From assembly GCA_902775025.1 (NCBI GenBank), contig CACYKP010000005.1:1-58029 (forward strand): a stretch of 58,029 nt of DNA. Reading direction: 5' to 3'. Positions 11,707 to 56,999 of the stretch are shown piece after piece; positions within the stretch are counted from its first letter, which is position 1; each line of letters begins with the position of its first letter. The DNA is from an uncultured bacterium (GTDB lineage: Bacteria; Cyanobacteriota; Vampirovibrionia; Gastranaerophilales; Gastranaerophilaceae). The notes beneath the pieces are model-generated. The model made no database searches. It saw only the letters and a list, made by a program, of their open reading frames with translations, and was not told the DNA's origin. Both the position numbers and the translations under genes were made by a program.

Positions 11707-13617
11707 ATGCGAAAATTGAACGGAATCACTATCAACGGAGAATATCTGGGTAATAGTGTTGTTATAAACGGTATGTTTAGAGCAATATGCACTATTTCTC
11801 CTGTTATAATGCGCGATTTTGTTCTTATAATTAATAAAATAGACAGATTAGACGAAGCAGTAAAAATACATAATTTTAATTGCGGATTTGATTGTATCGA
11901 TATAGAGTTTGAAAATAAAACATCTAAAGGCATGGCTAGTCTATACTTTAAGCTTTACGATGGTGAACCGTTATTAAAAGACTGCAAATTAGTAATAGAT
12001 AATGAGGAGTATAGTACTTTTGAAGAAAAAATAAAGTTGCGCACAAAAAATAATAAAGACATGACAAATCCTAACCAACAGCCCCAGAGTGGCAAGAATA
12101 GCGAACTTGATCGTCTGCAAAAAATAAGAGAGTTAAGGGAAAGAAAACAAGCAGAAAAAGCCGCAGGGACAAATTTTAATACAGGCAATTCGTCTAAAAA
12201 TGCCCCGAATCGACAAAATCCTGCAAATCTTTCTCCTGAACAGCTGAAAGAACAAAAGAAAAAAGAACTTTTGGACAAAAAACGAAGACTTTTAGAAGCA
12301 AAAAAAGCTAAAACATCATCTGCTGATATATCTGCTGAACAAGTAAACTCTGAGCAAAACGAATTAGCATTAGAAATAAATAATGATGATTCAGGAATAT
12401 CATCAACCAATTCAAGTGTACAAGATAAAAAGAAACCTGTAAGCAAACCAAGTACAATTGTAACACAGCCGGACGGCACTATTACTAATGAAAAAGGAGA
12501 GACCGTTGTAAAAGAAGAAAGGATAAATCCTGACGGTACGGTTTCGGAAGTTTATGTAAATCCAGATAATCCTGAAGAAGTTTATGAACAAAATGAAAAT
12601 GGCGAATTTATATGCGAAAAACCCGCTCAGGAAGAGTCATATAATGGAAATGATTATGCTGATGAGTTGGGAGAAAACGAATTCCAAAATAATACAGACA
12701 GTATTTTAGAAAATTTATCTGATGAAGATTTAGAAAATATGTCAGATGAAGAACTTGCAGCCTTAGAAGCCAAACTTAATGCAGAATTGGGCGAAAATAG
12801 CGGAGAATATAACAATTATGATAATTATTCCTCAAATCAAGGCGGATATCAGGGTAATAATTTTAATTTTGATGGTTTTGCTCAAGAATTAGCTCAAGGT
12901 CTCACTGAAGGATTGACTCAAGGGCTAGCACAAGGGCTGGTTCAAGGTTTAAGCCAAATCGGCGTTAATGGGGTTGGTGCAGGGATTGGTGCGGGACAAA
13001 GTTTTAGTACTGAGATGAACGCTGGAATGGGGACCGGAATGGGAATGGGCGGAATCGGGAATAATTCGGGTTTTGAGAACACTGATTTTGGTGATTCCTT
13101 CAGTGGCGGGTTTTCTGATGGTAATATATCAGGGCAAGGTTTCAATTCTGCTCCCGTTCAGCAAATAATGCCCGACTACTCTCAAATAGACGGTATGAAT
13201 TTTAATGCCGCTTATACTGCCAGAGATTCTTATTCCTATGACGAAAATTCAAATGTTGATGATATATCTGACTTCTATTCCGATTTTTATGATAATGTAA
13301 GTTCGTCAAACGAACAAAACTTAAATGCTCAATCACAACGTTCAGGCGCAGAAGGAGAAATGTCAGAATTAGATGCACTAAAAGCGGAATTAGAAGCTCT
13401 AAAAGCGCAGAATGAAGAAAAAAAAGATTTAATGACTGTAGAAGAATTTATGGCGCAACAGCAACAATTAAAAGAAGAAAAAGAGAAATTAAGCAGAAAA
13501 AAGATGCGAATAGTAGGCAGTAGTGGAAGAGTTAATGCGAGTGCGCTTGACGGAGGAGTTTTTGCTGCGGGCAAAAAACTTTATAAATGGGGTGATACCC
13601 GTGTTTTAGACGAATAA
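11707..13617 (+). CDS. Low-complexity 636-aa protein with small N-terminal domain and amphipathic repeats
   Basis: Residues 1-115 form a compact, beta-rich domain that might be PilZ-like, although I see no RxxxR or D/NxSxxG motif. Then come a Lys/Gln/Glu-rich helical stretch (about 120-210), a short proline- and glycine-containing linker with G-T-I/G-T-V repeats, an acidic stretch with LSDEDLENMSDEELAALEAK, a period-4 run (AQGL/EGL/QGL units) at about 395-415, a Gly/Met-rich segment, and a C-terminal coiled coil. There is no signal peptide. The 3' end overlaps the convergent TPR gene by 37 bp. The modular, disordered composition suggests a scaffold or surface-assembly protein; function not recognised. 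Confidence 0.6.
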   Translation: MRKLNGITINGEYLGNSVVINGMFRAICTISPVIMRDFVLIINKIDRLDEAVKIHNFNCGFDCIDIEFENKTSKGMASLYFKLYDGEPLLKDCKLVIDNEEYSTFEEKIKLRTKNNKDMTNPNQQPQSGKNSELDRLQKIRELRERKQAEKAAGTNFNTGNSSKNAPNRQNPANLSPEQLKEQKKKELLDKKRRLLEAKKAKTSSADISAEQVNSEQNELALEINNDDSGISSTNSSVQDKKKPVSKPSTIVTQPDGTITNEKGETVVKEERINPDGTVSEVYVNPDNPEEVYEQNENGEFICEKPAQEESYNGNDYADELGENEFQNNTDSILENLSDEDLENMSDEELAALEAKLNAELGENSGEYNNYDNYSSNQGGYQGNNFNFDGFAQELAQGLTEGLTQGLAQGLVQGLSQIGVNGVGAGIGAGQSFSTEMNAGMGTGMGMGGIGNNSGFENTDFGDSFSGGFSDGNISGQGFNSAPVQQIMPDYSQIDGMNFNAAYTARDSYSYDENSNVDDISDFYSDFYDNVSSSNEQNLNAQSQRSGAEGEMSELDALKAELEALKAQNEEKKDLMTVEEFMAQQQQLKEEKEKLSRKKMRIVGSSGRVNASALDGGVFAAGKKLYKWGDTRVLDE

Positions 13618-14933
13618 TAAGATTTTTGCGGAATTATGTGAGAACCGATAAGTGTTTTAAACTTTGGATCTTTATATAAATAAATATCAACAGTATAGTG
13701 CTGTAACTCTCGTTTTGTAAATATTTTGCTGCCTAATACCACATCTAAACGTCTACCTTCTGTGTCGTTTGCAAAAAGTGGTAATTTTTTTGAAGCGCAA
13801 GGTACAACAACAGTCTGCTTTACTTTGTCGTCCTTTTTTAATACGAATTCTACGTATAATTTTTTGATATCTTCTGTTGATACATTTTTAATTTTATATG
13901 TATTTCTTAATTGGTAGGTAAAAAATATTTTTTTTACTATTAACGACTTTAAATCAATATTAATATCGTTTTTATAAACAACCTTATTCTGCGTATATAA
14001 ATCCAAAGAGTGAATTCTATATCTGTAGTATTTAGCCTGAATTTGATTATTCTGAATATCCATCATATTGGCAGCTTTAATTAATGCTTTTCCGAATGCG
14101 AGGTAGTCAATTTCTTGCGGGATTTTTTGCATTAGTTCCTCAAAAAAGTCAATAGCCAAAATGGGATCTAAATCAGCATAAATAAGTGCAAGTCTATATT
14201 TAATATTCAAATTATCCGGATCGTATTTAAGGGCCTTTTTCAAAAATCTTGCTGCATCAGAAGAACTTCCGCCTTTCTCTATTATAACTGATGCAGCTTC
14301 GATATAAGATGATACAATTCGTTTTTTTATTGATTCATGAATATATCTATCTCGTTTTTTTAATCTGGTATAATAATAATTTGCTTTTTCATAAGCTTCT
14401 GCTGCTTTAAGAAATTTTGATTCAGAATAATATTTATCTCCCAATATAATATATGTACGAGTTTTGAAACGAACAAGTTTTAATGAATTTATGTCAGGCA
14501 CATCATTAATAACCTCTTCTGCATCTTTTGTTTTATTTTGAGTAATAAGAACAGTTGCAAATTTTTGATGGGCAGCAAAAGTTCCGTTAGGTGATTTTTC
14601 TAGTGCTAAATGATATGCATATTCGGCTCTTTGCATATCACCCGCTGCATAATATAAATCACCTACATTAATACAAACAGCGTAATTTTTGCCGGTTAAA
14701 GAAGATGTTAAATCAGCATGATTGACAATTTGTTTAGCAATTTGCTGCTCTATTTGCACCCTATCTGCTCTGTTTGAATATAGATTTTTAATCATTTCAC
14801 TTCTGGAATGGAATGATAATAATACAGTAAATATAACTGCAAACAAAAATGATATCCCCGCAGTTTTTATATATCCTTGCAGTTCTTGTTTTAGTGTTAT
14901 TTCCGGTTCACGTTTTGTTTTTTCTTTAATCAT
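13581..14933 (-). CDS. Membrane-anchored TPR protein
   Basis: 450 aa. One membrane helix at about residues 27-44 is followed by tetratricopeptide-like repeats, clearest at INVGDLYYAAGDMQRAEYAYHLALEKSPN, LGDKYYSESKFLKAAEAYEKAN and AARFLKKALKYDPDNLNIKYRLALIYADLD. The C-terminal 150 residues are a beta-rich domain of unknown kind. The protein probably sits in the inner membrane with the repeats outside the cytoplasm as a protein-binding platform. Its ATG lies inside the end of the MgtC-family gene (8-bp overlap, AGGAA upstream), so the two are translationally coupled. Confidence 0.75.
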   Translation of the reverse strand: MIKEKTKREPEITLKQELQGYIKTAGISFLFAVIFTVLLSFHSRSEMIKNLYSNRADRVQIEQQIAKQIVNHADLTSSLTGKNYAVCINVGDLYYAAGDMQRAEYAYHLALEKSPNGTFAAHQKFATVLITQNKTKDAEEVINDVPDINSLKLVRFKTRTYIILGDKYYSESKFLKAAEAYEKANYYYTRLKKRDRYIHESIKKRIVSSYIEAASVIIEKGGSSSDAARFLKKALKYDPDNLNIKYRLALIYADLDPILAIDFFEELMQKIPQEIDYLAFGKALIKAANMMDIQNNQIQAKYYRYRIHSLDLYTQNKVVYKNDINIDLKSLIVKKIFFTYQLRNTYKIKNVSTEDIKKLYVEFVLKKDDKVKQTVVVPCASKKLPLFANDTEGRRLDVVLGSKIFTKRELQHYTVDIYLYKDPKFKTLIGSHIIPQKSYYSSKTRVSPHL

Positions 14934-43390: not shown

Positions 43391-43725
43391 ACAAACCATC
43401 AATATATGAATTCTTTTTAAAACTTAAAAAATCGCAGAATAATTGCACAGAGAACAAAAACAAGGTTGGGGTTTATTTGGGACATTTGAATTGTAATTAT
43501 TAACTCTCTGTTAAAGCAATATCAAGTGTTTTACCAAGATATTGAAACATTGCGACACAAAGATTTATTTAATCTTTCAAGCATCCTATCGGGACAATAA
43601 AAGTATCATTATCTTTATATGCATATTTTCCGGTGCCGGTTATGATGTTTAATCGCCATGTTTGGCTTTGTGCTTGAGTTTTACCTGCTTCCCCGAGTCT
43701 GAGAGTTGGGGTTTTGAAAAGTCCG

Positions 43726-43758
43726 AAATGTCCGGTTATTAGGACTAAAATGTCCGGT
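43726..43758. repeat. AAATGTCCGGT direct repeat, 22-bp period, with an inverted copy nearby
   Basis: Copies at 43726-43736 and 43748-43758; the reverse complement CGGACATTTT lies at 43830-43839. Possible protein-binding sites near the left end of the mobile element. Confidence 0.45.
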
Positions 43759-44129
43759 ATCTTTCCATAAAATTTTATAAAATCGCCAAGTTTCCCTATT
43801 ATATTTGAATTACAGCCGAGTGCAAAAAGCGGACATTTTGTGTAATTTGCTATTCAAAATTTATATTAAACTCGGAAAAACCCCGCAAATTGTGCCTTTT
43901 AGAATTATAATTATTTCGCATAATTCTATGATATTTACCCCTAAGTCGGAAGTAATTTTTTTAGTGGGAAATCTCTTCCCTGACTTTATTTTTCAAATAT
44001 TTTATTGAAATAAATTCCAAAACTTAAGAACGAGTTTTTCAAGACTAAATGTAAAAAATATCGGATAAATTTTACCCCTCAAAGCAGGAAGCAGAATTGA
44101 GAGAAAATAGCAGATTTTTGCAAAATTAT

Positions 44130-44173
44130 GAATTCAAACCGTGTTTAAATTGCGTTTAAAAGGTGTTCAAAAG
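44130..44173 (+). repeat. Left array of four 11-bp tandem repeats
   Basis: GAATTCAAACC, GTGTTTAAATT, GCGTTTAAAAG, GTGTTCAAAAG: consensus GTGTTYAAAAG, one helical turn per unit, 135 bp before the transposase start. Confidence 0.7.
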
Positions 44174-44307
44174 CAGTTTTATAAAATTTTCTGCTTAAAA
44201 TTCAGATATAATCAGACATAAAACAACACATTTCCCCCTCAAACACTTCCATTTTGAGAGAAACCAGTCTAACATACAGTAGCTTCAATAATAAATAAGG
44301 ATACGGT

Positions 44308-46380
44308 ATGGCAGACATTAATAATAATGATATTTGGATCGATGTTGAGACTTTAGCGAAACTCAAAAATATTACTCGCAGAGCAGTTCGGCTTGCACTA
44401 AATCAAAATAAATATGAATACAAAGTTGAAAATATCAGAGGCGGAAAAACATATAAAATTAAATTATCCACACTCGAAGAAGAGCTTCAGCTTAAGTATT
44501 TTCAAGAATATTATGATGATTATAAAACGTGTGATAACGAGGTTATTGAATTAAGCAATCTCAATATCAAACAAGAAAAACTAATTTCTGAAAACCAAAG
44601 AAAAATTGCACTTGCAAAGTATGACTTAATTTATGCTTGGCTTGATTTTAGGAAAGAATATAAAAGGGACAAGTTGAAAACAGGCGGCAACATCCCTGAT
44701 AAAGAATTTATGCAATTATATAATACAGGGATGTTTCAGGAAAAGATTTTTAAAATCTTGGGCAAAGTCTCAATAGGGTCGCTTTATCGCTGGCGGGCGT
44801 TATTAGATTATAACAAAGATTGGACAGCTCTTGTCGGGCAATATAAATATTCAACCCGAAAGGAATACAGAACAACATTAAATGAAGAACAAATAAAAAT
44901 ATTTATACAGATTTTGCTCTCTCCAAGTTCGTTTTCAATAGGTAAAGCAATTTCACTCACTAAGCATATTTTAAAAGAACGTGGTCAGGAGATTTTACCT
45001 AAAGATATTACTTTTCGCAGGTATGCAGAGTGGTTTAGGGATAACAATTTTGATAAATGGACACTCGCTCGTGACGGCGAAAAAGCATTAAAGGATAAAG
45101 TAAGCCCCTTTATAGTCAGAAACGCAGCACTTTTAAAAGCTGGGCAAGTGCTTGTGGCAGACGGGCATACCCTCAACTTCCAAGTAATAAACCCATTTAC
45201 AGGCAAACCCTGCCGAGCAACTTTGCTCGGTTTTTTGGATTGGAAATCAGGTGGACTTGTGGGGTACGATATTATGCTTGAAGAATGTACGCAAAATATA
45301 GCATCGGCTCTAAGAAATGCGATATTAAAGATGGATCATATCCCTGAATACGTTTATCAAGATAATGGTAGAGCATTTAAGAGCAAGTTTTTTAACGGGG
45401 ATAAAAAGTTTGAGGAATTAGGATTTACAGGAGTTTACAACAAGCTCGGAATAAAACCTGTCTATGCTACTCCATACAATGCTCGGGCCAAAGTCATCGA
45501 GCGTTTCTTTTTGGATTTTCAGGAGAGTTTTGAAAAGCTGATTCCAAGCTATATCGGAACAAGCATTGAAAATAAGCCGGCATATTTGATGCGGAATGAA
45601 AAGTTGCACAAAAATATCCATGAGAAATACAGTTTTACCCCGACAATAGAACAGGCACTCAAAATGATAGAAAAATGGCTTGAATTTAAGCATTCTCAAC
45701 CTTGTCCGAATGCTAAAGATAAAACAATTCAAGAAGTTTTAAACGAAATCAAAAAGCAAAATATTGATGAAAACTCGCTTGATGATTTGATGATGGCGCA
45801 AGAGATAAAATCAATCGGCAGAAACGGAATAAGGTTTTTGAAAGCTGATTATTTTGACGAGGCACTTTATGGTATCAAAGAGAAAACCGTCATAAAGTAC
45901 AGTCTGTTTGACCTTTCATATATCAAAGTCTATTCGATGAAAGGCGAATTTATTTGTAAGGCAAACCGCATAACAGAAACGCATCCGCTTGCGTATCAAA
46001 TGGGCGATATTAAAGATATTGAGGATTACAAACAAAAAATAGAAAAGCAACAGGTACTTCGCAGAAAGACGATTAAGGCAGTTCGTGAGCATTTTAATTT
46101 AGAGGATATGGATTATCTTGAAAAAGAATTAATGCAAAATATTCGCTTGCCTCAGCCAGAACCGATTAAAGAAATAACGGTTCAACCTGAACCCAAACAA
46201 GAACAAAAATTTGAACCAAAGGTTAAAACCTCAATTGTAGCAAGGCCGATATTTAAAAGTGCATACGAACGATACGAATGGCATATGCAAAATGGGTGCA
46301 TTTGCCAAGAGGACAGAACTTGGCTAACTAACTACATAAAATCAGACGAATACAAAGAAATATACGGAAAGGAGCAGTAA
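44308..46380 (+). CDS. MuA/TnsB-like DDE transposase
   Basis: 690 aa. A winged-helix DNA-binding start (DIWIDVETLAKLKNITRRAVRLAL) and Mu-type HTH segments (about 95-250) precede an rve/DDE core. The catalytic triad is Asp285 (VADGHTLNF), Asp352 (YQDNGRAFKS) and Glu398 (AKVIERFFLDFQ). Then come the Mu C-terminal beta-barrel (about 510-580) and a Lys/Glu/Pro-rich tail that in MuA and TnsB contacts the ATPase. All key residues are intact, so it should be active. AAGGA precedes the ATG. It overlaps the ATPase gene by 1 bp (TAATG). Confidence 0.92.
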   Translation: MADINNNDIWIDVETLAKLKNITRRAVRLALNQNKYEYKVENIRGGKTYKIKLSTLEEELQLKYFQEYYDDYKTCDNEVIELSNLNIKQEKLISENQRKIALAKYDLIYAWLDFRKEYKRDKLKTGGNIPDKEFMQLYNTGMFQEKIFKILGKVSIGSLYRWRALLDYNKDWTALVGQYKYSTRKEYRTTLNEEQIKIFIQILLSPSSFSIGKAISLTKHILKERGQEILPKDITFRRYAEWFRDNNFDKWTLARDGEKALKDKVSPFIVRNAALLKAGQVLVADGHTLNFQVINPFTGKPCRATLLGFLDWKSGGLVGYDIMLEECTQNIASALRNAILKMDHIPEYVYQDNGRAFKSKFFNGDKKFEELGFTGVYNKLGIKPVYATPYNARAKVIERFFLDFQESFEKLIPSYIGTSIENKPAYLMRNEKLHKNIHEKYSFTPTIEQALKMIEKWLEFKHSQPCPNAKDKTIQEVLNEIKKQNIDENSLDDLMMAQEIKSIGRNGIRFLKADYFDEALYGIKEKTVIKYSLFDLSYIKVYSMKGEFICKANRITETHPLAYQMGDIKDIEDYKQKIEKQQVLRRKTIKAVREHFNLEDMDYLEKELMQNIRLPQPEPIKEITVQPEPKQEQKFEPKVKTSIVARPIFKSAYERYEWHMQNGCICQEDRTWLTNYIKSDEYKEIYGKEQ

Positions 46381-47105
46381 TGAAAAAGGTCTTCGTAAAA
46401 ACAAACAACGTTAAGCGGTTCATCACGATGATGAACAACTTACAAAACCGAGCGGAAGGAGTTCCCGGAATGGGACTTGTCTACGGTGAACCCGGACTCG
46501 GCAAAACTCAGGCTATAAAATGGTGGGCATTTAAAAACGATGCGATTCTTATCCGCTGTAATCAGATGATGTCCGCAAGATGGCTCTTGAAAGAGATTCT
46601 TGATTATATGTCAGAAATCAAGCCTTATTCTATATCAGATTCTTTTGATGAGGTTATACGGAATCTTATTCTGACACCTCGGGTTCTTATAGTAGATGAA
46701 GTTGATTATCTGACGATGGATAAAAATAAATCAATAGAAATACTAAGGGATATTCACGACAAAACTAACGTTCCTGTTGTTTTGGTTGGTATGACAAATG
46801 CTCATTCAAGACTCAAAAAATTTAGTCACCTTTATGACAGATTATCAGAAATAGTTAAATTTGAAAGATTTTCAAAAGCGGATATTAAAACTATCGTAAA
46901 AGAGCTTTCAGAAATTGAATTGACAGATTGTGCGATTAAGTACATTTACTCGAACCTCAACAGATTTAGACAAATTGTAAAAGTCATAAACAAAGCTGAA
47001 ACCATCGCAAAAGCAAACGGGTTAAGTTCTATAGACGAAATATTAATAAAGGAGGCAATACAAAATGAAACAGAAAATTCTCAAACTGATAAAGATTCTG
47101 AATAA
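46380..47105 (+). CDS. MuB/TnsC-like AAA+ ATPase
   Basis: 241 aa. Walker A is YGEPGLGKTQ (36-45), Walker B is VLIVDEVDYL (102-111), followed by a sensor-1-like LVGMTN and an arginine-rich C-terminal lid, as in IstB/MuB/TniB-type target-selecting ATPases. Such proteins coat target DNA, recruit and activate the transposase, and give target immunity. It is made from the same transcript as the transposase, with a 1-bp overlap, and its own end overlaps the next gene by 41 bp. Confidence 0.9.
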   Translation: MKKVFVKTNNVKRFITMMNNLQNRAEGVPGMGLVYGEPGLGKTQAIKWWAFKNDAILIRCNQMMSARWLLKEILDYMSEIKPYSISDSFDEVIRNLILTPRVLIVDEVDYLTMDKNKSIEILRDIHDKTNVPVVLVGMTNAHSRLKKFSHLYDRLSEIVKFERFSKADIKTIVKELSEIELTDCAIKYIYSNLNRFRQIVKVINKAETIAKANGLSSIDEILIKEAIQNETENSQTDKDSE

Positions 47106-48594
47106 ATTTACTATAGATGATATTTTGTCTATGAATGATTTTGAAGAACAAGAAGTTTCAGAAATATTGTCAGAATTAGAAAATTCAGGAATAATAAATA
47201 AAATTTCCAAAGAAGAATATATTTATTTCTCAAATGGAAAAGCAGAACCGCAGACCTCAAACCGGCTGCATAATTTAAATATAGAAAAAAGAAAAGATTT
47301 AACTGATATTAAAACATTGTTTTCTATAGACGAAGAGCAGGAAGTCTATGAAAATGCATCACCAAATGCAAAACGCAGAATTGTTAAATATTATACAATT
47401 CTAAAAATTGCAAGCCAGTTTGATAACCGGTGTATTGGTGCGTTTTTAAAACAATTTTCAAAAGAACATCCTGAGTACAAAATATCGCCATCGACTTTTT
47501 ACAGAATCCGCCTAAAATATGCTCAATACGGCATAAGAGGACTTATCCCAAACTATGCACCGGGAGCACAAAGTGCGGTACCACCTGAAATGTACGATGA
47601 ATTTAAAAATATGTACCTTAAACCAAATGCCCCATCAGTAAAAGAATGTGTAAGGCAACTCGCAAATACTTACGATAAAATGTCCGTACCAACACCGCAA
47701 TGCTTTAGACGGCTGCTGAATAAGGAGTTTACCCCGGAGCTTGTTGCACAAATGAGAGAAAAGTCATATCGGCTGCCGGATTTGAATTTTTCGCAAGAAG
47801 AAAAACTCAAAATAGATGAAATATCAAATAAAGTTTATGAAAATTTTATAGACGGCGCAAAAGCATATTTAGAATATCTCGCAAAACTCAGACGAACTCA
47901 GGATATTCAGGTAAAAATAAATGCAGTAAGGTTGCATATCATTCCGTTTTTTAAGAATTACAAGTTTTCTGAAATCACACAGGATGTCGTTTTTAGTTTT
48001 CAAAATAAAAAGATTCTTGAAGGGTATTCAAGAAAATATTTAATAATTTATTCAAAAGAACTTGAAATTATTATTAAAAAATATTCTGATAAAAATAAAT
48101 TCAACTTAATTTTTTCAACTCCGCAGAAATACAAAGAACATAAGATTTTAACAAAAGATGAAATTAATAAAATAACCGAAAAATATTCGCAGCAACTTTG
48201 GATTTTGTGTTTAGGAATCACACCTATGGAGTTGTATAATCTTGATTTTAGTGATATAAACTATGACGAACAAACGGTTCTAATTCGCAGTTCAAAATAT
48301 ACAATTTATAACCATCATCACAAAGAAAATCTGGATAGAACCCTTTATATCCCTGATATTTTGTTTAATAAAATTCCTAAACATCAAAAAGGACAGGTAT
48401 TTTTAAAGGTTAATGTGTCAAACTATGATACGCTTATAAATACGCATGTTTATTTATCTGTTAAACACAATATTCCTCTAAATGTTATATGTAAAAACAT
48501 AGGATATACTTGTTTTGATGACTTTTTAAACAGATTCGATTTCGCACTATCACATGATTTTATTCATAAAATCGATATTCTTAACGGTATATAA
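47065..48594 (+). CDS. Third transposition protein: wHTH + Mu-type HTH + dead tyrosine recombinase
   Basis: 509 aa. Residues 1-58 look like a winged helix. About 95-240 resembles the HTH region that precedes the DDE core in Mu-type transposases (KRRIVKYYTILKIASQF, ISPSTFYRIRLKYAQYGIRGL). About 255-345 is an integrase core-binding (SAM-like) domain, and about 355-505 the fold of a tyrosine recombinase. There LCLGITPMELYNLDFSDI replaces the usual G-L-R-x-x-E-L (no Arg-I), TH at 460-461 replaces R-H, and no catalytic Tyr is seen. DNA strand transfer by this part is therefore unlikely; DNA binding for target choice is the natural inference. AAAGGAGG sits before the ATG inside the ATPase gene. Confidence 0.75.
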   Translation: MKQKILKLIKILNKFTIDDILSMNDFEEQEVSEILSELENSGIINKISKEEYIYFSNGKAEPQTSNRLHNLNIEKRKDLTDIKTLFSIDEEQEVYENASPNAKRRIVKYYTILKIASQFDNRCIGAFLKQFSKEHPEYKISPSTFYRIRLKYAQYGIRGLIPNYAPGAQSAVPPEMYDEFKNMYLKPNAPSVKECVRQLANTYDKMSVPTPQCFRRLLNKEFTPELVAQMREKSYRLPDLNFSQEEKLKIDEISNKVYENFIDGAKAYLEYLAKLRRTQDIQVKINAVRLHIIPFFKNYKFSEITQDVVFSFQNKKILEGYSRKYLIIYSKELEIIIKKYSDKNKFNLIFSTPQKYKEHKILTKDEINKITEKYSQQLWILCLGITPMELYNLDFSDINYDEQTVLIRSSKYTIYNHHHKENLDRTLYIPDILFNKIPKHQKGQVFLKVNVSNYDTLINTHVYLSVKHNIPLNVICKNIGYTCFDDFLNRFDFALSHDFIHKIDILNGI

Positions 48595-48708: not shown

Positions 48709-50019
48709 ATGCAAAGAAGCGCAATAAAAAAGCTAAAAGAATGGAAAGATGAAAAAGATCATAAACCATTAATTATAGAAGGTGCAAGGCAGGTTGGAAA
48801 AACTTGGCTTATGAAAGAATTCGGGAAACAATATTATGAGCAAGTTGTTTATTTGCATTTCGACAATAATCCTGAGCTTGCTGCGGTTTTTGAAAATGAT
48901 TACAAGATACCGCGTTTAATAGAATCTTTTGAAATTTTATCAGGTATAAAAATCAATCCTGACAACACTTTAATAATTTTTGACGAGATTCAAGAATGTC
49001 CGAGAGCATTGACATCGCTTAAATATTTTAACGAAAATGCTCCTGAGTATGACATCGTAGCAGCAGGAAGTTTACTCGGACTTATCCACCATGAAGGAAC
49101 AGGCTTTCCTGTCGGGAAAGTTTCATTCTTAAATCTTTATCCAATGGACTTTTTGGAATTTGCAAGAGCACTTGGAGAAGAAAGATTTATTGAATTAATT
49201 GAGAAAAAAGACTTCCAAATGATAAGTATATTTAAAAACGAGTTTGAAAAACTTGTTAAAATGTATTGCTATATTGGCGGTATGCCGGAAGTTGTTCAAG
49301 ATTTTATAAATAATCGTGATTATAAGAGAGCCAGAGAGATACAAAAAACAATTCTTGCTTCTTATGAAAATGATTTTTCAAAACACGTTCCTGCAAATAC
49401 AGTTGAAAAAATAAGGATGTTATGGCAAACAATTCCATCACAGCTTGCAAAGGAAAATAAAAAGTTTATATATAGTGCTATAAAAACAGGTGCAAGAGCA
49501 AAAGAATACGAACTTGCTCTGCTTTGGCTAAAAGATGCAGGACTGGTATATCAGGTTAATCGAATTAAAAAGCCGGATTTACCACTAATTGCTTATCAGG
49601 ATTTTGAAGCATTTAAACTGTTTGTTGTGGATGTCGGTCTGTTATCTGCTTTAACAAATTTGGATGTAAAAACGATTTTAGAAAAAACTCAAATTTTTGA
49701 AGAGTTTAAAGGTGCAATAGCAGAACAATATGTATATCAGCAATTAAAAAGCGCTGAGGATGATATGCCAATTTATTATTGGTCAAATGATTCAAGCCGT
49801 AGCGAAGTTGATTTTGTGGTACAACTTGACGGATATGTTATTCCGGTTGAGGTAAAAGCGGAGAAGAATTTAAAAGCAAAGAGTTTAAAGAATTTTATTC
49901 AGGATTATAAGTCCGAAAAATCTGTTCGGACGTCACTTGCTGATTATAAATTGAATGATAATAATTTATATGATATTCCGCTCTATGCCATTGGAAATAT
50001 TGATGCTATTGTTGAATAA
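48709..50019 (+). CDS. AAA ATPase with DUF4143 domain
   Basis: 436 aa. Walker A EGARQVGKTWLMK (about 24), Walker B LIIFDEIQECPRAL (about 97) and a sensor in VAAGSLLG define the AAA_14 ATPase. The C-terminal DUF4143 domain ends with a nuclease-like strand (SEVDFVVQLDGYVIPVEVKAEKNLKAKSL) that keeps the D-x(n)-E-x-K pattern of PD-(D/E)XK folds. Such proteins are common, variable genes in gut bacteria with no proven role; links to DNA or toxin-antitoxin functions are speculative. Preceded by the 33-bp-period repeats. The 3' end overlaps the convergent phosphoesterase by 14 bp. Confidence 0.85.
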   Translation: MQRSAIKKLKEWKDEKDHKPLIIEGARQVGKTWLMKEFGKQYYEQVVYLHFDNNPELAAVFENDYKIPRLIESFEILSGIKINPDNTLIIFDEIQECPRALTSLKYFNENAPEYDIVAAGSLLGLIHHEGTGFPVGKVSFLNLYPMDFLEFARALGEERFIELIEKKDFQMISIFKNEFEKLVKMYCYIGGMPEVVQDFINNRDYKRAREIQKTILASYENDFSKHVPANTVEKIRMLWQTIPSQLAKENKKFIYSAIKTGARAKEYELALLWLKDAGLVYQVNRIKKPDLPLIAYQDFEAFKLFVVDVGLLSALTNLDVKTILEKTQIFEEFKGAIAEQYVYQQLKSAEDDMPIYYWSNDSSRSEVDFVVQLDGYVIPVEVKAEKNLKAKSLKNFIQDYKSEKSVRTSLADYKLNDNNLYDIPLYAIGNIDAIVE

Positions 50020-50575: not shown

Positions 50576-52429
50576 TTAACAGTTATTTGTATATGAAATA
50601 ACATTTGCCATCCCTGATTCTTTCAACAATACAAAAAATTCGTTAATTACATCTTTCTTCTGTTCTGGATATTTTAAACCAGAACGCACATTTGAAAAAG
50701 TAAAAGTTACAGAACATTTTGCTCTTGATAAAGCAACAAAAAATGCACACCTATCCTCTTCCGGCTGATTTTTAAAATTCCAAAAAGCAGAATCTTCCAA
50801 TCCAACAAAATATACAGCAGAATATTCCAATCCCTTGCTTTTATGTATAGTCATAATAGGAATAGAATTTAATCCACAGAAATTATCGATAGCATTTTGC
50901 CAATTTTGATTTGCTTCCTCAAATTCAGTATTAAAAAGCTCAATAAATTTATCTAATATTGTATCAAAATAATTTCCTTGACTATAAACCGGGAAATATG
51001 CTTTTATGCGATTTGTATCCAAAAAGGATTTTATAATATTAATAATTTCAGATATATTACATTTTTGTTCTATCATATTTTTCAAATTATTTTTCAAATC
51101 AAAAATTTGGTTTTGCAACTCTTCATACGTAGTATTATTATCACTATTAATACTAAAAATATTAATTATACATTCCTTAACTGTTTCCCATTTTTGTGCC
51201 TGTTTTATATTTATTGAACAAGAAACAATATCCAAAACAAGTTGTATTATAGGTTCTTTAATCAAGTCTTGATATTCAGTTTCAATTCTTGCTCGGATAC
51301 TTTTTACTTTTAATGCTTTTTCTATTGCCTGATTATAATCTTGCGGTCTTTGTTTGCATAAAATACAAATATCATTAGGTTCTATACCATTGCAAATTTT
51401 TTTATAAATATCATTAGCAATTGCGTCTGCTTCAAGCATCTCATTATCTGAAATAAAAAGATTAATTTCGCCATCTGAAGGATTCCATTTATTAGAACAT
51501 TTAATATCTAGATCTACTTCTTGTAAAGATTCATACATTTTTCTTTGAAACTCAACTAATTTTGGCGCAGATCTATGATTCATTAATAGCACTTTTGTAG
51601 CAGCCTTAAATTCATCACTATATATTTCAAAAACATTTTTCATTGCTCCTGCCCAAACCATAATACGTTGTTTATTGTCGCCAACAGCAGTTATTATAGA
51701 ATTTGACTCTAAAAAGCAATCTTTGATAAATTTATATTGTAAATCAGTAGTATCCTGAAATTCATCTAAAAACACATGACTATATGTTTTTTGTATTGCT
51801 AATTTAATTTGTTCATTTGTAAGTATTATATAATCTGCTAATTTATTAATCATTTTAAAAGTAAGAGTAGCCTTGTGATTATCAAATCCTTTGAGTAATA
51901 AAGGCCAGATTTTACTTCCAAATTCATCTGGATTTAGAGGTATAGTGGTATCTTTAAGAGGTTTATCATAATATCTGTAAAACTTACTTTTTGCGGTTCC
52001 ATTATGTGATACTCCTTGTCTAACAAAAGCTTTATCAATTACATCAAAATCTTCCACTAAATAATTGGAATTTGGTCTTAATTCATTTGGTAAAGCATAG
52101 AGAAAATGGTCTAAAATTCTTTTAAAAAAAGCATCATATGTCATAGATGAGAATCTTGATTTCGCATCTTGTCCACATCGTTTTTCAACTCTTTCTTTCA
52201 AATTTTGTGCAGAATCCGTCTTAAAACTAATTGCTAATATTTTTTTGGGATCTTTACAGAGATTTGTTTGTAAAAGATAAGTAGCTTTTTGTGCCAATAA
52301 TTCAGTTTTCCCCGCTCCTGGTCCAGCTATTACTAAAATATTATTTTGAGATATTACAGATTGTTTTGCAGATTCTTCAAGAATAATACCATCACTTGGT
52401 TGCCAAATTTCTTTATTAATTATTTTCAT
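50576..52429 (-). CDS. gajB: Gabija protein GajB-like UvrD/Rep superfamily 1 helicase
   Basis: 617 aa. Helicase motifs: I ILVIAGPGAGKTELL (Q-motif upstream), Ia AISFKTDSAQNLKERV, II HVFLDEFQDTTDLQ, III AVGDNKQRIMVWAGA, IV LLMNHRSAPKLVEF, V TIHKSKGLEYSAVYF, VI FFVALSRAKCSVTFTF. All are intact. In Gabija, GajB works with the GajA nuclease/ATPase against phage DNA. The ATG is 5 bp after the gajA stop, with AAGG within the gajA end, the normal gajA-gajB order. It is somewhat longer than many GajB proteins. A general helicase is the alternative, but the pairing argues for Gabija. Confidence 0.85.
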   Translation of the reverse strand: MKIINKEIWQPSDGIILEESAKQSVISQNNILVIAGPGAGKTELLAQKATYLLQTNLCKDPKKILAISFKTDSAQNLKERVEKRCGQDAKSRFSSMTYDAFFKRILDHFLYALPNELRPNSNYLVEDFDVIDKAFVRQGVSHNGTAKSKFYRYYDKPLKDTTIPLNPDEFGSKIWPLLLKGFDNHKATLTFKMINKLADYIILTNEQIKLAIQKTYSHVFLDEFQDTTDLQYKFIKDCFLESNSIITAVGDNKQRIMVWAGAMKNVFEIYSDEFKAATKVLLMNHRSAPKLVEFQRKMYESLQEVDLDIKCSNKWNPSDGEINLFISDNEMLEADAIANDIYKKICNGIEPNDICILCKQRPQDYNQAIEKALKVKSIRARIETEYQDLIKEPIIQLVLDIVSCSINIKQAQKWETVKECIINIFSINSDNNTTYEELQNQIFDLKNNLKNMIEQKCNISEIINIIKSFLDTNRIKAYFPVYSQGNYFDTILDKFIELFNTEFEEANQNWQNAIDNFCGLNSIPIMTIHKSKGLEYSAVYFVGLEDSAFWNFKNQPEEDRCAFFVALSRAKCSVTFTFSNVRSGLKYPEQKKDVINEFFVLLKESGMANVISYTNNC

Positions 52430-52434
52430 TGTAT

Positions 52435-54471
52435 TTAACCTTTTAATATAGATTTTGCTTTATTAAATATTTTAGAAAAAACATCTGGTAAATTTGCTTT
52501 TAAGTTTTCTTCAGGTATAGACGATAGCATTAACATGTGAGTAGTTGGTTTGCCTCTGTTTAAGAAAAAGTAATTATACCAAATCATAAGTTCTTTTTGT
52601 TTTTCACTGTAAGTTTCTCCACTTCCACCTTTTTCTTTGAGAGAATTTTTTACATCCTTAAAAATTCTATCTTTAAATTCATTGCTGGTTTTTTCTTTTT
52701 CACTAAGATCTTTAATTTTTTTATAATGTTCTCCCAGTTTTATTTCTGGACCCTCATTATTTTCTAATATATTTTTGTAGAAATTTTCATATTTTTCAAG
52801 CATCAAAAAATCTATATCCAAAGGGCTTGAAAAAAATATTCTAAAATTTTCCAAATAATTCATCCATCCTTCCATATTTTCATTTATTTCCCAATTATGC
52901 ATACTATCAAGATTTTCTTGTGATAAAATTTCCCCATTATCTAACTTTAATATATCTTCCCTTTTATAACCGATATTTAACAATTCCTTTATTACATACT
53001 GTATTCTGCCCCAACCCCCACCGTATCTTTCTTTATCCAAGTCTAAAAGAGTAATGTATGGTATTTTCAAGTCATTTAATAAACGCCAAAAATGATTAAC
53101 GTGCCTACCTCCAAGAGGAACGATAGATATTTCACTTAAATCAATATCCCCATTATATTTATCCCATAGTTTTGATAATATTAACTCTTCACTATCACCT
53201 TCACCTAGAATAACGAGTTTTGCAAAATATAATTCAGGATATGCTTTAACAGCTTCTTTTACATATTTATATTGCTCATCTGTCTTATTTGGTAAAGTTA
53301 TATTGCAAACATTAGTATATCCCTTGTCATCCACTCTAAAATAGCGTACTTGAGATGGCTCAACTCTTTTGATGATTGAAGCAGAATGAGATGTTATAAT
53401 TGTTTGAGCATTATTTTTATCTGCAATATTTTTTAAGTTATTTACTAATCTTCCAAGTAAATGTGGTGCTACATGGTTTTCTGGTTCTTCTACTGCCATA
53501 ATGGTCAAAATGGGCAAATTTTTATTAAAAGATATGTTTTCTGAATCAGTTTCTATTTCTTTTTTAATAGTATTTTCAATATTTAAAATACTATCTATTA
53601 ATGAAATATAAAACAAAGATTTTAATCCATCACTCATTTGATCAACAGTATAATCATTTCCTGTTTCAGTTGGGCTAAAAACAACATCTGCTCTTCTTAT
53701 AGATGTTTCAATATCTGCGCTATTAAATTTTAATGCTACATTTTTATACTTTTCATTTGTGTCGTAATTTTTCCAGCGCTTATCTAAAGAATCATTTAAT
53801 ATTTTAACACCTTGTTCGGCTTCAAATTCAGAATTTAATTCTTCGATCTTTAATTTAATATTGTTTCGCCTTTCATCTTTCCAATTAATACTATTAATAA
53901 GTTGATACATCATGGCTCCAGATGTGTTTTTAAGCTGTTTAGAAGGGTCCCTAACGGCAGGTACATATATGACCCTGATTTTATCTAAATCTCGCCTTTG
54001 CGCATTAACATAATCTTTATCTTCTATTTCTGTAGATTCTGGGCAGGTAATGTATCTAATCTGATAATCTATCGCACCTTCAATAGTATTGCTTTTTTCC
54101 CAAGTTGCATCCAATCTAATACGTATATATGGAATGCCACCTGGAGTATCTACAATTACATGCTCAAAAAATTGAGGTATAGAGGCATCTTCTTCTCCTT
54201 CTTGTATATTTTTAAATTCAAAAACAGCTTCAATATACATTTTTTGCTCTGTCATATTTTCAGGTAGCGTATTCTTGGGGACATAGAAATCGCTACGCCT
54301 TATATTTCTATCACTTGTAAACTCTGAAAACATGCAATTTAGTGCAGCCAATGCTGCCGTTTTTCCTGTACTATTACTTCCAATAAATGTTGTTAAATCA
54401 TCAATAGTAATCGTATGTTCTTTTTCTCCAAAACAACGAAAGTTAAATAACTTTATTTTTCTTAGTCTCAT
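52435..54471 (-). CDS. gajA: Gabija protein GajA-like OLD-family ATPase/TOPRIM nuclease
   Basis: 678 aa. The N-terminal ABC-type ATPase has Walker A FIGSNSTGKTAAL (residues 29-41), signature QMSDGLKSL (278-286), Walker B LTIMAVEEPENH (322-333) and the H-loop TSHSASI. The C-terminal TOPRIM domain has Glu424 in VILGEGDSEE, VPLGGRHVNHFW, and the D-x-D in TLLDLDKERYGG (Asp477, Asp479). These are the residues that make GajA a DNA-nicking nuclease repressed by nucleotides. I use the ATG at 54471 (AAGGA upstream); in-frame ATGs at 54480 and 54495 are alternatives. First gene of the Gabija operon. Confidence 0.85.
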   Translation of the reverse strand: MRLRKIKLFNFRCFGEKEHTITIDDLTTFIGSNSTGKTAALAALNCMFSEFTSDRNIRRSDFYVPKNTLPENMTEQKMYIEAVFEFKNIQEGEEDASIPQFFEHVIVDTPGGIPYIRIRLDATWEKSNTIEGAIDYQIRYITCPESTEIEDKDYVNAQRRDLDKIRVIYVPAVRDPSKQLKNTSGAMMYQLINSINWKDERRNNIKLKIEELNSEFEAEQGVKILNDSLDKRWKNYDTNEKYKNVALKFNSADIETSIRRADVVFSPTETGNDYTVDQMSDGLKSLFYISLIDSILNIENTIKKEIETDSENISFNKNLPILTIMAVEEPENHVAPHLLGRLVNNLKNIADKNNAQTIITSHSASIIKRVEPSQVRYFRVDDKGYTNVCNITLPNKTDEQYKYVKEAVKAYPELYFAKLVILGEGDSEELILSKLWDKYNGDIDLSEISIVPLGGRHVNHFWRLLNDLKIPYITLLDLDKERYGGGWGRIQYVIKELLNIGYKREDILKLDNGEILSQENLDSMHNWEINENMEGWMNYLENFRIFFSSPLDIDFLMLEKYENFYKNILENNEGPEIKLGEHYKKIKDLSEKEKTSNEFKDRIFKDVKNSLKEKGGSGETYSEKQKELMIWYNYFFLNRGKPTTHMLMLSSIPEENLKANLPDVFSKIFNKAKSILKG

Positions 54472-54607
54472 ATACACATTCCTTATATTAATCATGCTAA
54501 AAGCATTGTGAATACTAAATTTATTATAATACAAGAAGTGATATTTTTATTATGGAAATATATCCGATCCATGTTTGTGATAACCTAAAAAGAAAAAGGA
54601 GTTAGAC
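54472..54607. promoter_or_regulatory. Divergent promoter region between gajA and mrr-like gene
   Basis: 136 bp between two divergent start codons. It contains a perfect ATGCT-AAA-AGCAT palindrome (54494-54506), a good -10-like TATAAT (54525-54530) for the plus strand, and AGGAG before the mrr-like ATG. One regulator bound here could control both systems. Confidence 0.4.
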
Positions 54608-55513
54608 ATGGCTGTACCTGATTTTCAATCATTAATGAATCCTGTTTTAAATTTGTATGAAAAGAAAAATGTAGAATTGCGTCCACGTGATATTGAGGAT
54701 GAAATTGCTGAATTGTTTAATTTATCTGAAGAAGATAAAAATGAAATGATACCAAGTAATATTGAGACTATTCTTCGTAATCGTGTTAATTGGGCAGTTT
54801 ATTATTTATTCAGAGCGGGATTATTAGATAGACCAAAGAGAGGTTACTATAAAATTAGTGAAGCCGGTGCTCAAGAAAATAAAACCGGAAATAAAATAAA
54901 TATTGGATACTTAAAGAAATTCCCTTCATTTGTAGATTTTTCAAATATTGAAAATAAGAAAAGCTCTGATTCTGAAAATAGTATAGAAAACAATGAATTT
55001 CAAACTCCAGATGAAATGATATCTAAAGCACAGGCTTTATATTCTGATAATCTTCAAAACGAATTATTAGAAAAGCTAAAACAAGTCGATCCTGTTAAGT
55101 TTGAAAGAATAGTTTTACAACTTATGGAAAAGATGAACTATGGTATTGGATCAATGACAAAAATGAGTCATGATGGCGGTATTGATGGAATTATTGACGA
55201 GGATGAATTAGGTCTCGAAAAGATTTATCTTCAAGCAAAAAGATATTCGGATAATAAAGTTAACGAAAAAGAAATGCAGAATTTTGCCGGAGCTCTAGGT
55301 TGTTCAACAGTGCGCAAAGGTGTATTTATAACTACAAGCTTTTTTGATGAAAGAGCAAAGCAAAAAGCTGCCTCTGTACAAGGCAAAGTCATAAGACTTA
55401 TTAATGGTGATGAATTAACGAAATTAATGATAAAACACAATGTTGGCGTTCAACCTAAAAATACAATTGAAATTAAAAAACTTGATGAGGACTTCTTTGT
55501 TGATGAAGGTTGA
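54608..55513 (+). CDS. mrr: Mrr-type restriction endonuclease
   Basis: 301 aa. The N-terminal winged-helix domain (about 5-90; RPRDIEDEIAELFNLSEEDK, VNWAVYYLFRAGLLDRPKRGYYKIS) matches Mrr_N, followed by a polar linker. The C-terminal Mrr catalytic domain (about 155-275) has Asp193 in HDGGIDGII and Gln209-Ala-Lys211 in IYLQAKRY, the D-x(n)-Q-x-K form of the PD-(D/E)XK nuclease. Mrr enzymes cut methylated or otherwise modified foreign DNA and need no partner methylase. Divergent from Gabija; its stop abuts the stop of the small-gene operon. Confidence 0.93.
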   Translation: MAVPDFQSLMNPVLNLYEKKNVELRPRDIEDEIAELFNLSEEDKNEMIPSNIETILRNRVNWAVYYLFRAGLLDRPKRGYYKISEAGAQENKTGNKINIGYLKKFPSFVDFSNIENKKSSDSENSIENNEFQTPDEMISKAQALYSDNLQNELLEKLKQVDPVKFERIVLQLMEKMNYGIGSMTKMSHDGGIDGIIDEDELGLEKIYLQAKRYSDNKVNEKEMQNFAGALGCSTVRKGVFITTSFFDERAKQKAASVQGKVIRLINGDELTKLMIKHNVGVQPKNTIEIKKLDEDFFVDEG

Positions 55514-56145: not shown

Positions 56146-56302
56146 ATTTATTCCTTTTGTTACACAATACATCACTCTTTTTAGATAAAATATCAACTTG
56201 GATTCCTGAAATCGTATCATTTGGACACATTTGGGACTTGATGTTTCTGCGAAACAGAGTTATCCTGTGTGTACCAAAACTTTATTTACCCCGAGGTTAA
56301 CT

Positions 56303-56758
56303 ATGAAAAAACACACATTGGCACAAGAAGCCTTTAAACTCTATGCTGAAAAATTTATGTCGTTAGAAAATATCGCAAGGCAGCTTCATTTGAACGAAAG
56401 AACGCTTCGTCGGTGGAAAAAGTCTGATGATTGGGAAACCAAAAGAGCTGAATATCTTCGTACTAAAACGACATTACATTCGGATTTATATGATTTTATC
56501 CGAAGTTTAATAAATTCTATCGAAAAGGATATGGAGAATAACGGTAAAGTCGAGCCAGCAAGGTATTATGCTGTTACTAAAATGCTGAAATTGATTGGTC
56601 TGGTTAAATCTTACGAGGATGAAGTGATAAGTGAAAAACAAAAACAGAAAGAGGAAAAGCCGAAAGGTTTAACACCGGATGTGATACGAGAAATTGAGGA
56701 ACAAATTCTCGGCATAACACACGAAGAAATTTGTGAACACGATTTGAACACCGATTAA
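56303..56758 (+). CDS. DUF1804-like (Mu phage gp27-type) HTH protein
   Basis: 151 aa from the ATG at 56303, chosen for GAGG at good spacing; a longer frame from 56231 adds 24 residues. The N-terminal HTH is AQEAFKLYAEKFMSLENIARQL with LNERTLRRWKKSDDWETKRAEYL, the pattern of terminase-small-subunit-like and DUF1804 proteins of Mu-like phages. A helical dimerisation region follows and the tail is acidic. In Mu-like phages this gene precedes terminase and portal genes, none of which follow here. The last ~10 codons coincide with the right 11-bp repeat array. Confidence 0.7.
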   Translation: MKKHTLAQEAFKLYAEKFMSLENIARQLHLNERTLRRWKKSDDWETKRAEYLRTKTTLHSDLYDFIRSLINSIEKDMENNGKVEPARYYAVTKMLKLIGLVKSYEDEVISEKQKQKEEKPKGLTPDVIREIEEQILGITHEEICEHDLNTD

Positions 56759-56783: not shown

Positions 56784-56999
56784 TTAAACATCTTTTTCGT
56801 GATCGATAAAGAATGCATTTAATACATCTGCCTCATTTCGCAGGTGTTTTATTACCGGTGCAAGATTATAACACTCTTCAATCTCTGGTTGATTAGCAAC
56901 AAAATAATCAATAACAACTGCTGTGTTATAAATATTCTCTGACCATTTGCTTAATTGTTTAAACTCCTTGGGAGTAATATTTAATCCGACTTTTTCCAT
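56784..56999 (-). CDS. Small helical protein of unknown function (71 aa)
   Basis: A strong ribosome site (AAAGGAGG) precedes the ATG at 56999. All-helical prediction: NITPKEFKQLSKWSENIY, VVIDYFVANQPEIEECYNLAPVIKHLRNEADVLNAFFI. No HTH, signal or metal motif. It ends 11 bp outside the right repeat array and so may lie just outside the element. Confidence 0.65.
   Translation of the reverse strand: MEKVGLNITPKEFKQLSKWSENIYNTAVVIDYFVANQPEIEECYNLAPVIKHLRNEADVLNAFFIDHEKDV

Follow-up and report, generated by a model that had tools for sequence, protein, structure and literature searches.

On balance, we judge it likely that the third protein of a transposase operon in a Gastranaerophilales (Melainabacteria) genome, here called C, selects the target site, or acts as target adaptor, for a Mu/Tn7-type transposon that lacks TniQ and carries defence genes. 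Relatives of this element that keep integrase parts in C lie mostly beside tRNA genes, so C probably steers where the transposon lands. The element sits in the 58,029-nucleotide stretch that we analysed (the window), from a genome of 2.29 Mb, and a scan of named genomes found its relatives in Candidatus Gastranaerophilales / Melainabacteria MAGs.

The window itself encodes the DDE transposase and AAA+ ATPase of a Mu/Tn7-type core. Gene A (44308..46380, forward strand) codes for a 690-aa MuA/TniA-type DDE transposase (Mu-transpos_C 1.4e-13, rve and HTH_Tnp_Mu_2; phrog_310, 5.6e-91) and gene B (46380..47105, forward) for a 241-aa MuB/TniB-type AAA+ ATPase (AAA_22 3e-16, TniB 1.6e-9; phrog_296, 2.9e-49). 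As the initial annotation had proposed, C is the third gene of this operon (47065..48594, forward); it starts inside the end of gene B, with a 41 bp overlap, and its frame stays open for 509 aa. Gene D, an AAA/DUF4143 ATPase (48709..50019, forward; AAA_14, DUF4143; PADLOC PDC-S01 2e-181), is followed by a Gabija defence pair on the reverse strand (50576..54534) made up of GajB (50576-52429, PADLOC 1.4e-216) and GajA (52435-54534, PADLOC 5.2e-257), and by an Mrr-type methyl-directed restriction enzyme (54608..55513, forward; Mrr_cat 5.8e-31; PADLOC mREase_IV 8e-70). Two conserved element genes come last: gene E, a small HTH protein of DUF1804 or terminase-small-like type (56231..56758, forward), and the 71-aa gene F near the right part of the element (56784..56999, reverse). 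D stays beside C in the window's subgroup and was found in L035-L038, and F is kept in L035, L038, L075, L076 and L077. Copies of the element agree in their A-B-C-D block and in the E region, and in some of them the intervening genes differ, which is the pattern of a transposon with exchangeable cargo. The slot from D to E (50576-55513 in the window) holds genes other than Gabija and Mrr in the L035 and L038 copies.

On the left, the element has a conserved end region (43649..44307, forward) that shares 91% identity with relatives starting at 43644-43649. Near-identical relatives start with TATRGTTTTTCGGACACTTTTGAAAT about 40 bp outside this region; a search of the window for that motif found none, and the outermost end there is missing or altered. 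Two adjacent repeats of 33-47 bp, with many copies in the genus, lie just outside the conserved region at 43467-43533 and may be the mark of another mobile element that disturbed this end. Because the left flank holds such short repeats, the insertion site of the window's element could not be reconstructed. No right end was found in the window, and it may lie beyond the contig. In three relatives (L038:7250-7760, L039:11440-11740, L113:9281) pieces of the left end, about 190-240 bp long and all beginning with TATRGTTTTTCGGACAC, stand in tandem, and in L113 the left-end start is repeated after about 20 bp; possibly the element inserted or excised several times at this one end.

Pfam and PHROG matches, a PDB search by sequence profile and structure modelling give one consistent layout of C, and it agrees with the combination of winged helix, Mu-type HTH, core-binding domain and tyrosine-recombinase fold that had first been read from the sequence. 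Residues 1-57 (47065..47235, forward) form a winged helix common to all C variants, as seen in the structure model, in the alignment across variants and in phage-type third genes. A helical DNA-binding region resembling Mu I-beta/gamma follows at residues 89-233 (47329..47763, forward), with matches to the MuA transposase family phrog_310 at 90-233 (2e-11) and to HTH_Tnp_Mu_2 at 170-245 (1.2e-4). Residues 256-340 (47830..48084, forward) are an integrase core-binding (SAM-like) domain, matched by Phage_int_SAM_3 at 268-316 (2.8e-5) and modelled as four helices at 261-340. The remainder, residues 361-497 (48145..48555, forward), is an inactivated tyrosine recombinase catalytic domain according to model, alignment and profile; a PHROG integrase family matches residues 261-448 (1.9e-6). 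A profile of 15 C homologues retrieved integrases from the PDB (3nkh at 2.9e-15, XerA at 9e-11), and the AlphaFold model (pLDDT 76.7, pTM 0.37), which is good within domains and not in their mutual arrangement, matched Tn1549 Int at 1.5e-6 and the Mu transpososome more weakly. The recombinase fold predicted by the initial annotation is therefore present, and by Pfam, structure and profile C has both the core-binding domain and the catalytic fold that define the tyrosine recombinase superfamily.

In every complete operon examined, C is the third gene after A and B, so its homologues consistently follow MuA/MuB-like genes. Alignment across variants shows a constant N-terminal winged helix followed by parts that differ. 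One form joins a core-binding domain to a near-intact catalytic domain in which Arg-I is replaced by Lys (L163, L169). The window type (509-570 aa, sometimes a tandem pair) has the Mu-type HTH, the core-binding domain and a dead catalytic domain. A third form, C184, consists of 184 aa with the core-binding domain alone (Pfam 2.8e-9), and its model (pLDDT 83) best matches integrase N-terminal domains. The fourth, C414, has 414 aa with an unrelated tail and no recognised integrase part, and a fifth of 243-249 aa is without the core-binding domain. Gene A is about 44% identical between clades. The window and L041 share an A at 97% identity, yet L041 carries the unrelated 414-aa C; the C module has therefore been swapped.

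Other arrangements of the operon were also observed. Two differing recombinase-type C genes stand in tandem behind B in L043, L140, L143 and L152. In L066 (8136-9801) and L067 (9811-11438), C is split into two frames, an N-terminal part and a recombinase part, which represents either decay or a two-protein version. A gene for a coiled-coil-like protein of 208-236 aa follows C in some elements (L082:7803-8438, L138:5492-6115).

A search of viral contigs with C alone returned no relative. B is followed in Mu-like viral contigs by a gene that, where recognised, encodes a winged-helix (wHTH) protein of 89-230 aa, and some of these carry a C414-type tail. Most simply, the transposons would have added integrase modules to a small accessory protein of Mu type. 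Three viral contigs (L210, L211 and L213) contain an A-B-C operon with a C of about 226 aa and, directly 3' of it, another A-like gene of Mu type, about 652-662 aa long, with a B gene (292 aa).

Insertion sites differ between these groups. In all 14 independent C184 elements the left end, TATAGGTTTTCAGGACAGTT, lies 41-128 bp downstream of the 3' end of a tRNA or tmRNA gene, usually just beyond its terminator hairpin and always in the same orientation to it, and many different tRNAs serve as sites. One member, L180, has a variant end, judged from its sequence; L167 and L175 fit the same pattern. In the clade with a 550-aa C (clade 2 of the C recombinases), whose ends are TGTAAAGAAACAGGACA... 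and, read inward, TGTWAATTAACATGAG..., a tRNA 3' end lies within about 400 bp of one element end in 14/18 cases, in either orientation. The TGT...ACA ends and 5-bp target duplication of a Mu/Tn7-type core were seen in these relatives, not in the window, and the duplication is perfect in 8 of the 12 clade 2 elements with both ends. Four of the 18 are not at tRNAs, three of them with clean duplications. Only 1 of 13 C414 elements is at a tRNA. Against a chance expectation of about 0.8% per element (48 tRNAs in 2.29 Mb) the clade 2 count gives P ~3e-26, and Fisher's test of 30/34 against the 1/13 of C414 gives p = 4e-7, both values overstating independence since elements were gathered by similarity and de-duplicated by gene A start only. 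Among C414 elements, L110 is inside an integrase gene and others are at a site near hipA, while L114 is inside a gene that looks terminase-like by eye and has no Pfam match. At the insertion sites lacking a tRNA, Rfam found no other RNA gene.

Two elements of differing types, L052 (right end 3755, left end ~18064) and L110 (7826), have gone into tyrosine integrase genes, and the conserved position, four residues past LRHT...KGV, is nearly identical in both. L038, L078, L109 and L128 share an upstream flank of 84-89% identity before their left ends; it precedes both window-type and C414-type elements, lies upstream of a hipA-like gene in L038, and is a second insertion hot spot.

The strong tRNA contrast is one between clades whose A and B differ as well, and the specificity could therefore reside in A, B or E. 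C might then be an accessory or regulatory transposition protein that binds ends or promoters or shapes the transpososome, with targeting left to A, B or E. Its MuA-like HTH domains could, from their sequence, bind element ends; E is conserved in all clades and element types and stands directly behind C in two of them; and Mu-like viral contigs keep a third gene of winged-helix type without the integrase part. Yet with A conserved at 97% identity, C varies exactly where a selector would be expected to vary, C has no significant similarity to A of the same operon in pairwise BLASTP, and E is the same where targets differ. We consider such a purely accessory role unlikely, and prefer a C that selects the target.

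Adjacency to tRNAs might also be passive, with tRNA flanks acting as general hot spots where harmless insertions survive. Remnants of other elements do occur at the same sites (for example the tmRNA site in L082 and L182), as do integrase genes at some insertions (L052, L110). General selection, however, should treat all elements of the same hosts alike, and C414 elements are rarely at these sites, whereas C184 elements are there without exception, in one orientation and over a narrow range of distances. Passive adjacency thus seems distinctly improbable beside active choice of the site by C.

For the window's own close subgroup, the case for tRNA siting is weak and mixed. L039 lies 275 bp from tRNA-Asp, L038 is at the site near hipA also taken by C414 elements, the close relatives L118 and L178 are neither at tRNAs nor at the hipA site, and no tRNA is present in the window's left flank. 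Among clade-1-type elements, judged from left sides only, those with a core-binding C are at tRNAs in 5/18 cases against the 1/13 of C414, with no clear difference. The initial annotation had suggested that C could read attachment-like sites with a recombinase scaffold. The inactivated scaffold stands, as does tRNA-side insertion in two core-binding-domain groups, C184 and clade 2; the suggestion does not extend clearly to the window's subgroup or to the clade-1 type.

Two rules were considered and rejected. The catalytic domain is ruled out as the source of tRNA targeting, as C184, which is without it, is the most consistent tRNA group. A strict equation of core-binding domain with tRNA is ruled out by clade-1 elements, which do not clearly obey it; the three elements with a C of 243-249 aa, no more than a few kb from tRNA-His or tmRNA, are also possible exceptions.

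The recombinase part of C has lost its catalytic residues. In the window protein the Arg-I position is Thr386 (LGI-T-PMEL), as first proposed from the motif GITPMEL, and Phe491 occupies the column of the nucleophilic Tyr, whose absence had likewise been noted. Arg-II is also lost, though not at the TH of residues 460-461 to which its replacement had been assigned: by alignment its column is Ile458, two residues earlier. The window's C is thus without all three residues, Arg-I, Arg-II and Tyr, of an active tyrosine recombinase. Across 41 distinct homologues, Arg-I is absent in 40 and Arg-II in 35, none has both, and the nucleophile column is still Tyr in 32. A loss spread so widely is a feature of the family and not a fault of the window copy. 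No homologue with intact R-H-R-Y was found that would point to gross misalignment of the motif, the nearest being L163. This L163 protein (12734-13825), encoded beside tRNA-Ala, combines the winged helix and core-binding domain with a near-intact catalytic domain that keeps Arg-II, the His after Arg-II and Tyr, Arg-I being replaced by Lys.

It is very improbable that the recombinase part no longer has a role and is the decaying remnant of a fused integrase: catalytic residues are lost in all 41 homologues and some C copies are split or truncated (L066, L067, L045), but four genomes of other genera hold full-length open frames of C that are 93-95% identical, and a fifth has a contig-cut one, structural residues are invariant across homologues of 23-36% identity, the fold is confidently predicted, and the successful C184 group retains the core-binding domain alone.

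Taking C as a target selector, we infer that it binds DNA, contacts A or B and causes the choice of target. The constant winged helix would probably dock on the A/B machinery, and the region behind it would be a DNA-reading module that can be exchanged. This module appears, in the window and many relatives, to be a captured tyrosine integrase whose catalytic residues are gone, and which keeps the core-binding domain and usually the fold of the catalytic domain. The integrase part would clamp attachment-type DNA such as tRNA gene ends and recruit the B ATPase, and A would insert the element nearby with a 5-bp duplication. More tentatively, and with nearly even confidence, we propose a Gastranaerophilales family of TniQ-less Mu-type defence transposons in which a common winged-helix adaptor takes exchangeable DNA readers. 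Integrase parts would have been captured and then, step by step, inactivated or cut down to the core-binding domain, so that a Mu-type machine with random targets came to home to tRNA and tmRNA flanks, convergently with and independently of TnsF. If so, transposons have more than once made targeting devices out of the DNA-binding modules of recombinases, in this case where TniQ is absent and natural intermediates run from near-intact forms down to the core-binding domain alone. Natural swaps, in which the same transposase is paired with another C, offer a direct way to test how Mu/Tn7 elements acquire target specificity. As a protein-guided targeting part, a 184-aa adaptor that prefers tRNA flanks would be very small.

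Several known systems share parts of this arrangement. Residues 256-497 of C have the fold of Tn1549 Int and XerA; unlike these, C has lost the catalytic arginines and, in the window, the nucleophile too. The resemblance to phage Mu and Mu-like phages is that A and B fall in PHROG families of Mu-type transposases and transposition proteins, and that related viral contigs have a small wHTH gene behind B. Here, in contrast, the cargo consists of defence genes, C has acquired integrase modules, and the surroundings of the window's operon contain no recognised phage structural genes.

TniQ/TnsD proteins of Tn7-like elements and CASTs likewise have a constant N-terminal core with a variable DNA-reading extension, and some home downstream of tRNAs, as in the TnsD/CyCAST homing 30-33 nt downstream of tRNA-Leu (PMC10293859). 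C, however, has no Pfam TniQ match, and its elements lie at variable distances from the tRNA (39-380 bp) where Tn7 spacing is fixed. Among the operon genes named above, none resembles the TnsA endonuclease of Tn7 proper. TniQ (PF06527) was found in 0/60 family genomes, a weak result as control genomes were silent too.

A full-text search of an open-access library for the architecture of C led only to Faure et al. 2023 (PMC10293859), who described TnsF of Tn6022, a target selector with an inactivated tyrosine recombinase domain. The initial annotation's suggestion of a new kind of selector is therefore not supported. In TnsF, zinc fingers at the N-terminus precede tandem core-binding domains and a partial catalytic domain; the protein acts through TniQ on the target comM, and has an active relative, Tsy (PMC10293859). 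Both are operon proteins of about 500 aa with an inactivated tyrosine recombinase part, and C has a near-intact relative, L163, where TnsF has Tsy. The N-terminus of C, in contrast, is a winged helix with Mu-type HTH instead of zinc fingers; C has a single core-binding domain and a full-length dead catalytic domain; its A-B-C operon is without TniQ; and its relatives with resolved sites are mostly at tRNA flanks. By the defining features tested C is not a TnsF, but, built on the DNA-binding parts of a recombinase, it may by analogy work like one.
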